Positions 6,173-19,773 of a DNA stretch of 20,999 nucleotides are shown in pieces. The notes under the pieces were generated by a model. The model worked only from the letters and a program-made list of their open reading frames with translations. It was not told the origin of the DNA and did not search any database. Position numbers and translations under genes: made by a program. Each line of letters begins with the position of its first letter. Within the stretch, counting starts at the first letter, position 1. Origin of the DNA: a virus; IMG/VR virus record IMGVR_UViG_3300037342_000014, positions 1 to 20,999 of that record. One strand, given 5' to 3'.

Positions 6173-6739
6173 TTATTTTACATACCTATTTATATTTTCT
6201 TTAAACTGTTTTCTGTTCATCGTCGGTAAAGATAAGTTACATTTCATACACAACATACCAAAATCACATGATAACCATATCTTTTCATTATCTGGTGTTC
6301 TTGGATGATCTCTTAACCAAGTATGTGGGCCACCTTTTATAATTTCTGTCCCCCCATGTCTATGGTCAAAGCAAATAGCAAGTGATGGATTTTTTCTGTT
6401 AAAGAAAATATCCTTACCACACATCTGACAAGATGTTGTTAATGGAATTAATCCCTCCCAAGATTTTAAACAGTTGTTCCTATTCTTATTTCTTGATATT
6501 TTTTCTGCGTCAGGATTATTTAACTTCCAATTTTTAGCCCTATCAATGTATTCCTGTTTATTTTTTTCATAATGCCGTTTTGAAAGCAAGAAAACTTTCT
6601 CTTTAAATCCTGGTCTTAATTTTTGAATCTCGCGACCACGCTTATTGTAAATCTTAATCCTATCGGGATATTTGTTACGATAATCCTGAAGATACTTCTT
6701 GTGATATTCCCTTCTCTTTTCCAAGTCTTTAAATGGCAT
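6173..6739 (-). CDS. Free-standing HNH homing endonuclease, endonuclease VII-like, 188 aa
   Basis: The first ~95 residues are very basic with repeated KY, NKYPD and KRHYEKN-type units, likely DNA-binding. The catalytic part has C104-x2-C107, then ICFDHRHGG (D125, H126, H128) and FGMLCMKCN (C164, C167, N168), the zinc and His-Me-finger arrangement of the recombination endonuclease VII family. I chose the ATG at 6739, which overlaps the adaptor's stop as TAATG and has a GGGGGG run five bases upstream; a start 27 bases further upstream is open but lies inside the adaptor. The gene sits exactly between adaptor and nozzle genes, typical of an intergenic homing endonuclease. All visible catalytic residues are present, so it may be active. 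Confidence 0.85.
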   Translation of the reverse strand: MPFKDLEKRREYHKKYLQDYRNKYPDRIKIYNKRGREIQKLRPGFKEKVFLLSKRHYEKNKQEYIDRAKNWKLNNPDAEKISRNKNRNNCLKSWEGLIPLTTSCQMCGKDIFFNRKNPSLAICFDHRHGGTEIIKGGPHTWLRDHPRTPDNEKIWLSCDFGMLCMKCNLSLPTMNRKQFKENINRYVK

Positions 6740-7599
6740 TAGAACCCCCCACCAGGAATCCACCACCCAATATTATTATTATCATTTCCAACGCCAACCG
6801 CACCTGTCGCTCCTGATAGTCTTGAACAAAACCATTCATCGGCAACGGCCTGATCTGGACTTGTCGTATTTGAATCTGCGGCAATCGCTGAAATTAACTT
6901 GGCTTGATAATCTTTCTCAAGACCTGCCGCGTACTGTGCCGCTTCTGAAATCTTGAAACACAACTGATATGCCAGTTTAGTTGCCAACGCCTCTAAAGCC
7001 TTTGAGCTGAACTGTGTCAAATCCTGTTGAAGAAAAACATACTTCATTGCAGGGATATTGTTATTGTTTGTAATCATACACTCCGTCGCTGTTGTAAGGT
7101 ACGGAGGTTTGATAAATTCTTTTCGGTAAAAAGCTGGCGCACCGAATAAATAAACACTAACAAAATCCGCTGGAAGATTGTATGGGTTATTACAACCATC
7201 ATTCATTACTGGCAATGGAAGTAATAGCGGAGCCACACCAGTCTGCAAAGTCCAATCACCATTGGCAAGATCAGTGGCAAACACTCCAGAGGTATGTTGA
7301 ATGGCGCAAACATAGATTGACCCTCCTTGCAGTACATACATCCCCACGTTGTAAAGCGTTGATGTAACCCATGCCGAAGGGTTAAGCGGGATCAAAGGCA
7401 CAGTTTGAACCGCAAACGACCAGGGATGTTCTTCCAGAAACTCTTGAATCTCAAAAGGCCAAATATCTGTTAAATATAATGCCGCAGGATTTCCTGACGT
7501 AGAAGGGCTAGAAATATCACTGGCAACAAGACGAGCAGCGCCAATCTTGTACATTGCTTTATTGAATAGGACTAGCTGTGTAAAGAGCGCGTTTGCCAT
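6739..7599 (-). CDS. Tail adaptor / tail tubular protein A (T7 gp11-like), 286 aa
   Basis: The N-terminus (FNKAMYKIGAARLVASD) and 'W.FEIQEFLEEHPWSFA' near residues 47-63 match the gp11-type adaptor that joins portal to nozzle. NPYNLPADFVSVY and a helical C-terminal part with SSKALEALATKLAYQLCFKI at about 190-210 also fit. T7 gp11 is 196 aa; the extra length comes mainly from the 45-residue module at 76-120 and a Gly/Asn-rich tail ending GWWIPGGGF. I placed the start at the ATG at 7599 (MANALF), preceded by AAGGTGG five bases upstream, rather than the ATG three codons earlier. It overlaps the end of the membrane-protein gene by 28 bases. Confidence 0.82.
   Translation of the reverse strand: MANALFTQLVLFNKAMYKIGAARLVASDISSPSTSGNPAALYLTDIWPFEIQEFLEEHPWSFAVQTVPLIPLNPSAWVTSTLYNVGMYVLQGGSIYVCAIQHTSGVFATDLANGDWTLQTGVAPLLLPLPVMNDGCNNPYNLPADFVSVYLFGAPAFYRKEFIKPPYLTTATECMITNNNNIPAMKYVFLQQDLTQFSSKALEALATKLAYQLCFKISEAAQYAAGLEKDYQAKLISAIAADSNTTSPDQAVADEWFCSRLSGATGAVGVGNDNNNIGWWIPGGGF
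7240..7374 (-). repeat. 45-aa duplicated module, copy in adaptor gene
   Basis: Residues 76-120 of the adaptor (AWVTSTLYNVGMYV to FATDLANGDWTLQT) are the partner of the nozzle module at 5704-5838. The flanking adaptor and nozzle sequences are not similar to each other, so the similarity is limited to this module. Confidence 0.85.
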
Positions 7600-18523: not shown

Positions 18524-18740
18524 TGATTTCTAAAAGAGCGGTTATGAGATCATCGGCTTTGTGTTCGTGCTTATCGGATATTCCTTTGAGTGCAACTGGA
18601 AGGGCTATCTGTAATTTTTGCTTATCATCGAATTTATACCAATTTGCAATAAGATATGAAGTAGTCATTGCTAACAACGTGCCGTCTTCAAATCTTTCAA
18701 AATTTGTTTTAGGGCCTGACTTACCTTTTACTCCACTCAT
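18477..18740 (-). CDS. Probable terminase small subunit, 87 aa
   Basis: The gene directly precedes and overlaps the large subunit. Its N-terminus VKGKSGPKTNFERFEDG is a basic motif typical of small terminases and other phage DNA-binding proteins, followed by a compact helical part (TLLAMTTSYLIANWYKF, KQKLQIALPVALKGI) and a basic end. It is shorter than most small terminases (usually about 100-180 aa). Assignment rests mainly on position and the DNA-binding N-terminus. Ribosome site GAGAGG lies about nine bases before ATG. It is the first gene of the leftward operon. Confidence 0.65.
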   Translation of the reverse strand: MSGVKGKSGPKTNFERFEDGTLLAMTTSYLIANWYKFDDKQKLQIALPVALKGISDKHEHKADDLITALLEINAKKPREIKVVRNRI

Positions 18741-18780
18741 TTGAAATAACCTCTCTACTTATATGATAGACCTTAATATT

Positions 18781-18816
18781 TTCCTTGCAGTAGGAAGCCA
18801 CATTGGCCTTGCCAAT
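18781..18816 (-). other. Two adjacent small hairpins in the leftward leader
   Basis: ATTGGC-AAG-GCCAAT (18816-18802, 6 bp, 3-base loop) is followed on the minus strand by TTCCT-6-base loop-AGGAA (18796-18781, 5 bp). They lie between the terminator-like hairpin and the small-terminase start and may shape the 5' untranslated RNA or bind a protein as DNA. Confidence 0.45.
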
Positions 18817-18852
18817 ATATTTTGGAACTCTGCTTTGCATATTTGTTAAATA

Positions 18853-18881
18853 CAAAAACTCCCGTCGACAAATACGAGAGT
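18853..18881 (-). terminator. Intrinsic terminator-like hairpin in the leftward leader
   Basis: On the minus strand ACTCTCG (18881-18875) pairs with CGGGAGT (18864-18858), 7 bp with one G-U pair and a 10-base loop, directly followed by TTTTTG. It lies ~40 bases downstream of the predicted leftward start site, so it would act as an attenuator or as a stop for transcripts entering from the right. Confidence 0.55.
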
Positions 18882-18892
18882 CTTGTATACAT

Positions 18893-18905
18893 TCGGTTTG
18901 ACCGA
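18893..18905 (-). other. Small hairpin at the start of the leftward leader
   Basis: TCGGT-CAA-ACCGA is a perfect 5-bp stem with a 3-base loop on the minus strand. As DNA it is an inverted repeat that could also be an operator just downstream of the promoter candidate. Confidence 0.4.
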
Positions 18906-18929
18906 TACTGTGTTAATCTTCATGTTTTA

Positions 18930-18957
18930 ATTTTAGCACCCACAAATTTTATTGCAA
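18930..18957 (-). promoter_or_regulatory. Candidate leftward promoter for the virion operon
   Basis: TTGCAA (18957-18952), a 16-base spacer and TAAAAT (18935-18930) on the minus strand give 4/6 and 5/6 matches to sigma70 boxes. The predicted start falls at or near the ATG at 18923 of a 25-codon ORF, so a leaderless peptide is conceivable but unproven. Confidence 0.45.
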
Positions 18958-18979
18958 TAAAAAATAAATAAAAATTTTC

Positions 18980-19006
18980 TTGACGTCAATTGTACATTGG
19001 TATAAT
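18980..19006 (+). promoter_or_regulatory. Rightward sigma70-type promoter of the replication operon
   Basis: TTGACG (18980-18985) and TATAAT (19001-19006) are separated by 15 bases, slightly short but with a perfect -10. The palindrome TGACGTCA overlaps the -35 box (18981-18988) and could be an operator. Transcription would begin near 19013, exactly at the first arm of the leader RNA's long stem. Confidence 0.7.
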
Positions 19007-19013
19007 ATTTGAA

Positions 19014-19156
19014 TTGCGAGTTAGAAAAAGTGTACGAAACTTTATGATAAATCCAATACAAAAACCAAAGATTGATTTGTTGACCCCGTGCTTGGCTAAC
19101 TCGCAAGTCTGCCTTCCATTGTGTTTCTACACTCTGGGCACGGGGTTCCTTTTTTT
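19014..19156 (+). ncRNA. Structured leader or small RNA with pseudoknot, unrecognised class
   Basis: TTGCGAGTTAG (19014-19024) is perfectly complementary to CTAACTCGCAA (19096-19106). Inside that stem lie AAAGT/ACTTT (19027-19031 with 19039-19043) and AAATC-C-AAT/ATTGATTT (19049-19057 with 19071-19078, one bulged C, extendable). ACCCCGTGC (19083-19091), within the same loop, pairs perfectly with GCACGGGGT (19138-19146) outside it, creating a pseudoknot. Between these are GTGT-TTCT-ACAC (19121-19132) and flanking CCA/TGG. The final arm is followed by TTCC and seven Ts, terminator-like, then GAGG and the ATG at 19165. I do not recognise a known RNA family. A 39-codon ORF (19044-19163) without ribosome site overlaps it. 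Confidence 0.65.
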
Positions 19157-19164
19157 GAGGTAAT

Positions 19165-19773
19165 ATGGCTAAACGATTTACTGAAACAGAAAAATGGAAA
19201 GACCCTTGGTTCTGTGGTTTAAATGAAAAGCAGAAGCTCTTTTGGTTCTACCTTTTAGATACCTGCGATCATGCTGGAATATGGCAGGTTAACTGGCCTT
19301 TAGTGGACTTCTATATTAAAGGATACAAGCATGATTCATATAAGTTTGAAGGGCGTATTCTGTATATATCTGAAAATAAATGGTTTATAAAAAAGTTTAT
19401 TGATTTTCAGTACAAAGGAAAGTTAAATCCCGATAATTCTGCCCATAAATCTGTTATTGACAGGCTTGAAAAAGAAGGGGCTTGGCAGGGGCTAGCTAGC
19501 CCCTTGGCAGGGTCTAAGGATAAGGATATGGATAAAGATAAGGTTAAAGACATGGAAGGGATTGTTAAGGGAAACCAAAAAGAACTTTACCTATCTGCAG
19601 TGTATCTAACCAAAGAAGAACACGCCAAGCTAATCACCCGATTTGGGGATGAAGGAGTTAAACAGCGCATTTATGATCTAAACAACGGCATAATGTCAAA
19701 GGGCTATAAGTATAAAAGCCACTATCACACAATTCTAAGCTGGGAGCGCAGACATGAACGACTCACTAAATGA
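19165..19773 (+). CDS. Probable phage replication initiator / replisome organiser, 202 aa
   Basis: Residues 1-60 (ETEKWKDPWFCGLNEKQKL, FYLLDTCDHAGIW, PLVDFYI) follow the N-terminal winged-helix pattern 'W.dpWf..L....kl.w.YLld.cd.aGiw' of phage replisome proteins. A short linker with repeated Lys-Asp pairs (SKDKDMDKDKVKD, ~117-129) follows, and the C-terminal ~60 residues read VYLTKEEHAKLITRFGDEGV, then YDLNNGIMSKGYKYKSHYHTILSWERR, the DnaD-like/replisome C-terminal motif that recruits helicase loading. GAGG lies four bases before the ATG, directly after the structured leader. The linker DNA contains a palindrome with flanking repeats. Confidence 0.72.
   Translation: MAKRFTETEKWKDPWFCGLNEKQKLFWFYLLDTCDHAGIWQVNWPLVDFYIKGYKHDSYKFEGRILYISENKWFIKKFIDFQYKGKLNPDNSAHKSVIDRLEKEGAWQGLASPLAGSKDKDMDKDKVKDMEGIVKGNQKELYLSAVYLTKEEHAKLITRFGDEGVKQRIYDLNNGIMSKGYKYKSHYHTILSWERRHERLTK
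19481..19512. repeat. Palindrome with flanking direct repeats inside the replication gene
   Basis: CTTGGCAGGG occurs at 19481-19490 and 19503-19512, flanking the perfect 16-bp palindrome GGGGCTAGCTAGCCCC at 19488-19503. A run of GGATAA/AGATAA-type repeats follows at ~19515-19550, coding the charged linker. Replication initiator genes of several phages carry their origin in this linker, so this is a candidate origin or protein-binding site; that function is inference. Confidence 0.6.

Follow-up and report, generated by a model that had tools for sequence, protein, structure and literature searches.

A pseudoknotted leader RNA between promoter and replication initiator gene in an uncultured phage, and leaders of the same plan in other phages

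Between a promoter and the replication initiator gene of an uncultured phage (record IMGVR_UViG_3300037342_000014; the whole stretch of 20,999 bases that was analysed is called the window below) lies a leader whose complementary segments interlock with a terminator-like hairpin directly before the start codon. The preliminary description of this DNA had proposed a structured leader with a pseudoknot in front of the replication gene, and this is supported by phages of unrelated sequence that keep the same topology and the same place between promoter and initiator gene and by pairing that covaries in two large groups of relatives. The leader is also indifferent to the initiator that follows. We consider it somewhat better than an even chance, roughly 55%, that the leader acts in cis as a transcription attenuator or terminator, an RNA module that would stay constant through exchanges of the initiator gene that follows.

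The leader of the window phage

The window carries a head-tail connector gene and other structural-type genes leftward and a replication operon rightward from 19165. The nearest genes upstream of the leader, at 18740 and lower, also run leftward, so that a terminator here could act only on the transcript of the promoter at 18980. The first gene of the operon (19165-19773, plus strand) encodes a replisome-organizer-like replication initiator of 202 aa. Its C-terminal domain (residues 134-193) matches the replisome organizer PHROG 13246 (E 2.3e-10), and its N-terminal 116 residues represent a family beginning M-A-K-R-F-T-D-T that is common in IMG/VR contigs. No significant family was found for the protein in Pfam. 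Its AlphaFold model (pLDDT 74.5) is mostly helical, the N-terminal half also containing a few strands, and had no significant match in the PDB. Elsewhere in the window, a 197-aa ORF on the minus strand (6173-6766), amid the structural genes, resembles an HNH-type endonuclease (CxxC...CxxC, DHRHGG), and on the minus strand at 18855-18930 a promoter-like site directed leftward was observed, with a terminator-like hairpin after it. That hairpin (18855-18884) was considered as a leftward mirror image of the leader and rejected; in the relative L001 it falls within a coding frame (112-aa ORF), and it is probably the remnant of a gene.

The promoter found by consensus scan (18980-19008, plus strand) consists of a -35 element TTGACG (18980-18985) and an extended -10 element TGGTATAAT (18998-19006), with an alternative -10 element TAATAT (19003-19008) at a spacing of 17 nt, and an A+T-rich stretch lies immediately 5' of it. 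These elements predict that transcription starts near 19012-19014, where the first arm of the first helix lies, in agreement with the earlier proposal that transcription from 18980-19006 would begin there. On the minus strand no sigma-70-like site was found by the same kind of scan between 18990 and 20913.

All the elements described earlier, namely the 11-bp stem, two inner hairpins, a crossing 9-bp helix, a hairpin-containing segment, the T run and the ATG, were found on the plus strand. The 5' arm of helix a (TTGCGAGTTAG, 19014-19024) pairs perfectly over 11 bp with its 3' arm (CTAACTCGCAA, 19096-19106), which lies inside the loop of the terminator stem P2 and thereby forms a pseudoknot. 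P2, identified from sequence and folding, has its 5' arm (GACCCCGTGC, 19082-19091) within helix a/a' and its 3' arm (GCACGGGGTT, 19138-19147) beyond it; a perfect 9-bp core (ACCCCGTGC, 19083-19091, with GCACGGGGT, 19138-19146) is extended to 10 bp by the pair G19082-T19147. After the 3' arm, CC and seven T residues (T7, 19150-19156) complete an intrinsic-terminator-like end at 19138-19156, and the T run is followed by a GAGG ribosome binding site (19157-19160) and the start codon ATG at 19165. A further pairing, b/b', was absent from the preliminary description: AGTGTA(c)GAAAC at 19029-19040 is complementary to GTTTCTACACT at 19123-19133 over 11 bp with one bulge. Both of its arms are held in local hairpins as well, the 5' arm (AGTGTA, 19029-19034, and GAAAC, 19036-19040) in AAAGT-gtacgaa-ACTTT at 19027-19043 and the 3' arm in GTGT-ttct-ACAC at 19121-19133 (GTGT/ACAC at 19121-19132). 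A weak, imperfect hairpin in the long loop (TGATAAATC/GATTTGTTG, 19045-19082) is unsupported by the relatives.

The order of the segments is thus a, b, P2, a', b', P2', in which every helix crosses both of the others. Pairings like a/a' occurred in 3 of 2000 dinucleotide shuffles (p = 0.00075 in a second run) and pairings like b/b' in 21 of 2000, while nested folding of the window leader alone, which captures only part of the helices, gave z = -2.3. The leader contains no direct (tandem) repeats.

Leaders of the same plan in other phages

Only one relative has a recognisable leader sequence. In L001 (IMGVR_UViG_3300037223_000018, positions 2431-2650 against window 18960-19180), the 200 bases from 5' of the promoter to the ATG differ from the window solely in a run of six T residues in place of seven, and the promoter and all helices are identical. 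Right after the ATG the two diverge: L001 has a different N-terminal domain (MAKDPAFLFY...), and the C-terminal 72 residues are again 100% identical to those of the window. As judged from the two sequences, leader and C-terminus are retained and the N-terminal domain is swapped exactly at the start codon.

Other members of the family carry leaders of unrelated sequence and the same design, namely L020, L038, L048, L052 and two large groups. In these two groups the plan begins with the promoter and start, continues with a 5' hairpin A and with a hairpin B that tops the terminator hairpin, and closes with a T run and the ATG; in both, the loops of hairpins A and B form a kissing pair. The T run 3' of the corresponding stem is also present in the related leaders, the ATG lies 0-9 nt past it across very different phages, and the leader measures about 145 nt in the window phage and about 85-100 nt in the relatives. 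The window leader follows this plan in that a 5' segment pairs with the terminator-hairpin loop, by way of a/a' and b/b', and in that no more than about 10 nt separate the end of the T run from a replication initiator start codon. Its position and architecture suggest that it belongs with these Bacteroidetes-type leaders. No sequence similarity to groups 1 and 2 was found, and R1, a covariance model built from group 1, gave no match in the window, L001 or L020. When the strength of pairing between the 5' region and the terminator loop was combined over seven groups, which had first been picked by eye, p was 3e-7; L048 alone was not significant (p 0.25).

In 150 of 155 leaders of relatives, hairpin A is preceded at a near-constant distance by a Bacteroidetes-type -7 box, TAnnTTyG, against a background of 6% in random 60-mers. 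This box has been placed at -12 to -5 (PMC9723704), and the predicted start would therefore lie 0-2 bases from where hairpin A begins; the position of the window promoter relative to the RNA is the same. The type of promoter also points to Bacteroidetes-type hosts for the relatives.

Pairing was assessed mainly in the two large groups, for which DNA-pattern scans of IMG/VR returned at least 120 stretches (group 1, about ten of them chance matches without a leader) and 103 stretches (group 2). Among 60 unique group 1 leaders, all 7 bp of the kissing pair were intact in 59, through 8 different loop sequences, when the register was picked by complementarity, and the remaining leader, L397, is degenerate in its 5' half. 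When hairpins A and B were located by an automatic parse blind to complementarity, 53 of the 60 leaders had perfect kisses, with 16 ambiguous cases. In the alignment A4 (27 distinct group 1 sequences, linkers removed), 98.6% of the cells were paired as against 75% after shuffling, a percentage inflated by the cutting of the segments to the structure; the diversity of the matching loops is independent of this cutting. Both-sided changes were found in 17 of the 21 structure pairs. The covariation score was 0.684 against 0.224, a value reached in none of 500 shuffles, and the signal was abolished by sliding the alignment one column; for the kissing helix alone the score was 0.533 against 0.119. 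In group 2, where covariation was judged by inspection, an 8-bp kissing pair was present in 33 of 35 leaders, and the other two keep 7 of the 8 bp. With the model R1, leaders were also detected in L147, L145, L105 and L104, at a distance of 350-500 bases upstream of the gene, a small ORF having been inserted between leader and initiator gene. Among these finds were new, perfectly matched loop pairs in L145 and L105 (GTACGAG/CTCGTAC and GTACCAG/CTGGTAC), which at the level of sequence is independent confirmation of the kissing pair. The group 1 leaders share an invariant linker AACTTATT and the internal-loop bases TGAA, both absent from the window. The idea that the kissing loop evolves faster than the rest was unsupported, the diversity of the internal loop being similar.

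Two leaders outside the large groups deserve mention. L020 has the same a-b...a'-b' order, with the pairings CGGCGGAC/GTCCGCCG and GAAGGATAAC/GTTATCCTTC and with ATCCCCAG/CTGGGGAT as its P2. It also holds a second full intrinsic-terminator-like hairpin (CCGAGAAAGTATTCTCGG and a T run, positions 1240-1300) between the 5' arms and P2, as well as a 17-codon frame that spans both arms, and it may be regulated differently. The Chitinophagaceae contig L289 has, 5' of a relative of the gene, a long branched hairpin (2430-2500) and then a T run immediately before the ATG; this hairpin is nested, without a pseudoknot.

Behind the leaders, the first ORF is of many types. Among the 212 leaders of groups 1 and 2 (on partly redundant contigs) these types included MAKDPA, MAKRFTD, MNRDFKG, several of the form M..FYFSHD, MKYFLHD, MNTGMIV and others, and representatives matched PHROGs of a replication initiation protein, a primosomal protein, a DnaD-like helicase loader and a replisome organizer; two leaders precede an MKVLIAC ORF. 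One identical 77-nt leader core stands before five initiator types, some without mutual similarity by BLASTP (L360 and L396, for example), and another identical core precedes the genes of L357, L311 and L363. The initiators themselves are mosaic (L001/window, L311/L324, L357/L417), with N-terminal domains exchanged at the start codon behind a constant leader and C-terminal domains common to different N-terminal types. In about 13 cases the first ORF is a small GIY-YIG or HNH endonuclease-type ORF, with endonuclease PHROGs for two of them; in L414 (6966), L467 (2545), L431 (1340) and L349 such ORFs lie directly behind the leader, at the junction of the initiator swap. It is possible that these small ORFs drive the exchange of initiators.

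Searches for carriers among sequenced organisms returned little. By blastn, named phages had no match to the window leader region or to group 1, and a short match of group 2 in Aaphi23, which sits among late genes, was taken as chance. Neither a group 1 nor a group 2 leader was found in 16 bacterial genome contigs that carry relatives of the gene. No clear group 1 leader was found in 395 Bacteroidia and three further genomes, one 26-base match (E 7e-4) having been obtained among the 395; most carriers are therefore probably virulent, or else infect hosts that have not been sampled.

Possible function of the leader

The preferred reading, attenuation or termination in cis, may be laid out as follows. 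The leader would be the 5' RNA of the replication operon, with transcription beginning at the first helix, as the promoter suggests. The nascent 5' part would pair with the loop of the P2 terminator, as a long-range pseudoknot in the window phage and in kissing-loop form in the relatives. P2 would close before the U run, most polymerases would presumably stop there with the release of a short stable RNA, and the fraction that reads through would be the initiator mRNA. The pseudoknot would set the ratio of stopping to passing and probably allow its regulation, and the attenuator would in this way dose or time the expression of the initiator. That the leader is kept through initiator swaps is as expected for a general dose control acting in cis. 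No alternative antiterminator fold is conserved among the leaders, however, and all the helices are compatible at once, so that the pseudoknot might just strengthen the terminator; termination at a fixed ratio may accordingly take the place of regulation. Among the four roles offered earlier, that of an attenuator, with P2 and its T run before the ATG, agrees best with these observations. For the riboswitch-like form of it, no conserved aptamer or ligand-binding sequence is shared across the groups, and autoregulation by the encoded protein is disfavoured, for the reason given below.

The most serious alternative, and a tentative one, is a stand-alone small RNA that ends at P2 and the T run, acts on trans targets in phage or host, and lets the initiator be expressed by leak-through. 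With a promoter of its own, a hairpin at the start and a closing terminator, the leader resembles a typical stable small RNA, and there is an analogy in the RNA RCd22 and the type III antitoxin RNAs, which are likewise located between a promoter and a gene, the terminator before the gene setting the ratio (PMC12373285). Yet the leader keeps its position 0-9 nt before the initiator start codon in very different phages, which speaks for a function in cis, and the groups share no sequence that could meet a common trans target. By analogy with the put RNA of HK022, the nascent RNA might instead bind the polymerase and carry it past this and later terminators. The leader does begin at +1 of an early operon, with an elaborate fold in cis that is kept whatever gene lies behind it, but a canonical terminator closes this fold just ahead of the first gene, and we regard such processive antitermination as unlikely. 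Less probable again is a primer or origin RNA, whose transcript would end at the T run, stay hybridised and prime DNA synthesis, the origin being next to the initiator gene. Replication initiators of many types always adjoin the leader, the A+T-rich stretch lies just 5' of the window promoter, and the 7-nt kissing loops resemble those of the ColE1 control RNAs; nevertheless, different N-terminal domains should require different origins, whereas the leader is identical, and RNA folding by itself accounts for the covariation.

The remaining explanations carry little weight. Autoregulation by the encoded initiator is a frequent theme among structured leaders, and the window and L001 do share an identical C-terminal domain behind identical leaders. 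The 77-nt core found before five types of initiator, dissimilar ones included (L360, L396), argues that the RNA is independent of the protein behind it, and autoregulation is thereby disfavoured to the point of being quite improbable. Attenuation by a leader peptide would depend on the 39-codon open frame that overlaps the leader (19044-19163, plus strand) and stops beside the ATG. This frame is without a clear ribosome site, its end is altered by the missing T of L001 while every helix stays intact, and no such frame was seen by eye in the Bacteroidetes-type leaders of about 90 nt that start at hairpin A. Conservation of the frame together with broken helices, which had been named as evidence against the RNA, was not seen. 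The frame is thus probably not a functional leader peptide, and this explanation is slightly less credible even than autoregulation. The least probable explanation is an ordinary terminator with complementarities by chance: taken by itself, P2 is a terminator-like stem of an ordinary kind and the nested z is only -2.3, but a/a' and b/b' are rare in shuffles and the plan recurs and covaries in relatives.

On a wider and speculative view, which we hold only tentatively, the leaders could form an undescribed, widespread class of phage RNA, a fixed component of a replication module whose initiator genes are exchanged, in which the RNA (as attenuator, polymerase-binding element or primer) times the entry into replication and the diversified complementary loops serve as a specificity code against cross-talk between co-infecting phages. 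Should attenuation in cis be correct, many uncultured phages would have in common a control of replication onset at the level of RNA, whichever initiator they use. It would explain the clean initiator swaps at the start codon, would add a structured RNA family that is missing from Rfam 15, and would offer a compact natural part that joins pseudoknot and terminator. The fold predicts exact compensatory mutants and is therefore testable. If only termination at a fixed ratio takes place, the interest would be smaller, yet the family would still be new with respect to Rfam 15.

Comparison with known systems

Regulatory leaders that contain a terminator are a known kind, whereas the present family is absent from Rfam 15: no family exceeded the gathering threshold in the window or in 16 relatives, and under permissive settings 18700-19300 had no matches above chance level. 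In the open-access literature no account of a leader of this kind was found. Of the related designs compared below, none agrees in the features examined. In the plasmids pT181 and pIP501, a leader terminator directly before the rep gene doses the initiator and requires a counter-transcribed antisense RNA. The terminator immediately before a replication initiator gene is the common point; here, in contrast, the pairing is within one RNA, and no promoter-like site was found by consensus scan on the minus strand between 18990 and 20913. The put RNA of HK022 also folds where an early phage operon begins and acts in cis on transcription. The leader described here differs in ending in a terminator. 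In the RNAI-RNAII system of ColE1, which is linked to replication, 7-nt loops are fully paired, as are the loops of the replication-linked RNA here; however, both loops are in one RNA in our case, without an antisense partner.

In the P4 CI and the P1-P7 c4 systems, complementary segments on a leader transcript control downstream genes, in P4 the replication operon by termination. Complementary segments on one leader transcript, upstream of the genes presumed to be controlled, are found here as well, but no Rfam match was obtained (C4 RNA is the Rfam family RF01695; PMC2864571), and the a-b...a'-b' order suits intramolecular pairing. Since no clear group 1 leader was present in the 395 Bacteroidia genomes, there is also no sign of prophage immunity of the P4 CI/c4 kind. 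A search for defence and toxin families gave nothing beyond a chance-level match to Csx19 (E 0.012). In the AbiF RNA RCd22 and the type III antitoxin RNAs, a terminator between RNA and gene sets the ratio of the two (PMC12373285). The succession of promoter, folded RNA (with pseudoknots in ToxI), terminator and gene is the same in ToxIN and RCd22 as in the window phage, whereas here the RNA is without tandem repeats, and the gene behind it encodes a replication initiator and not a toxin.
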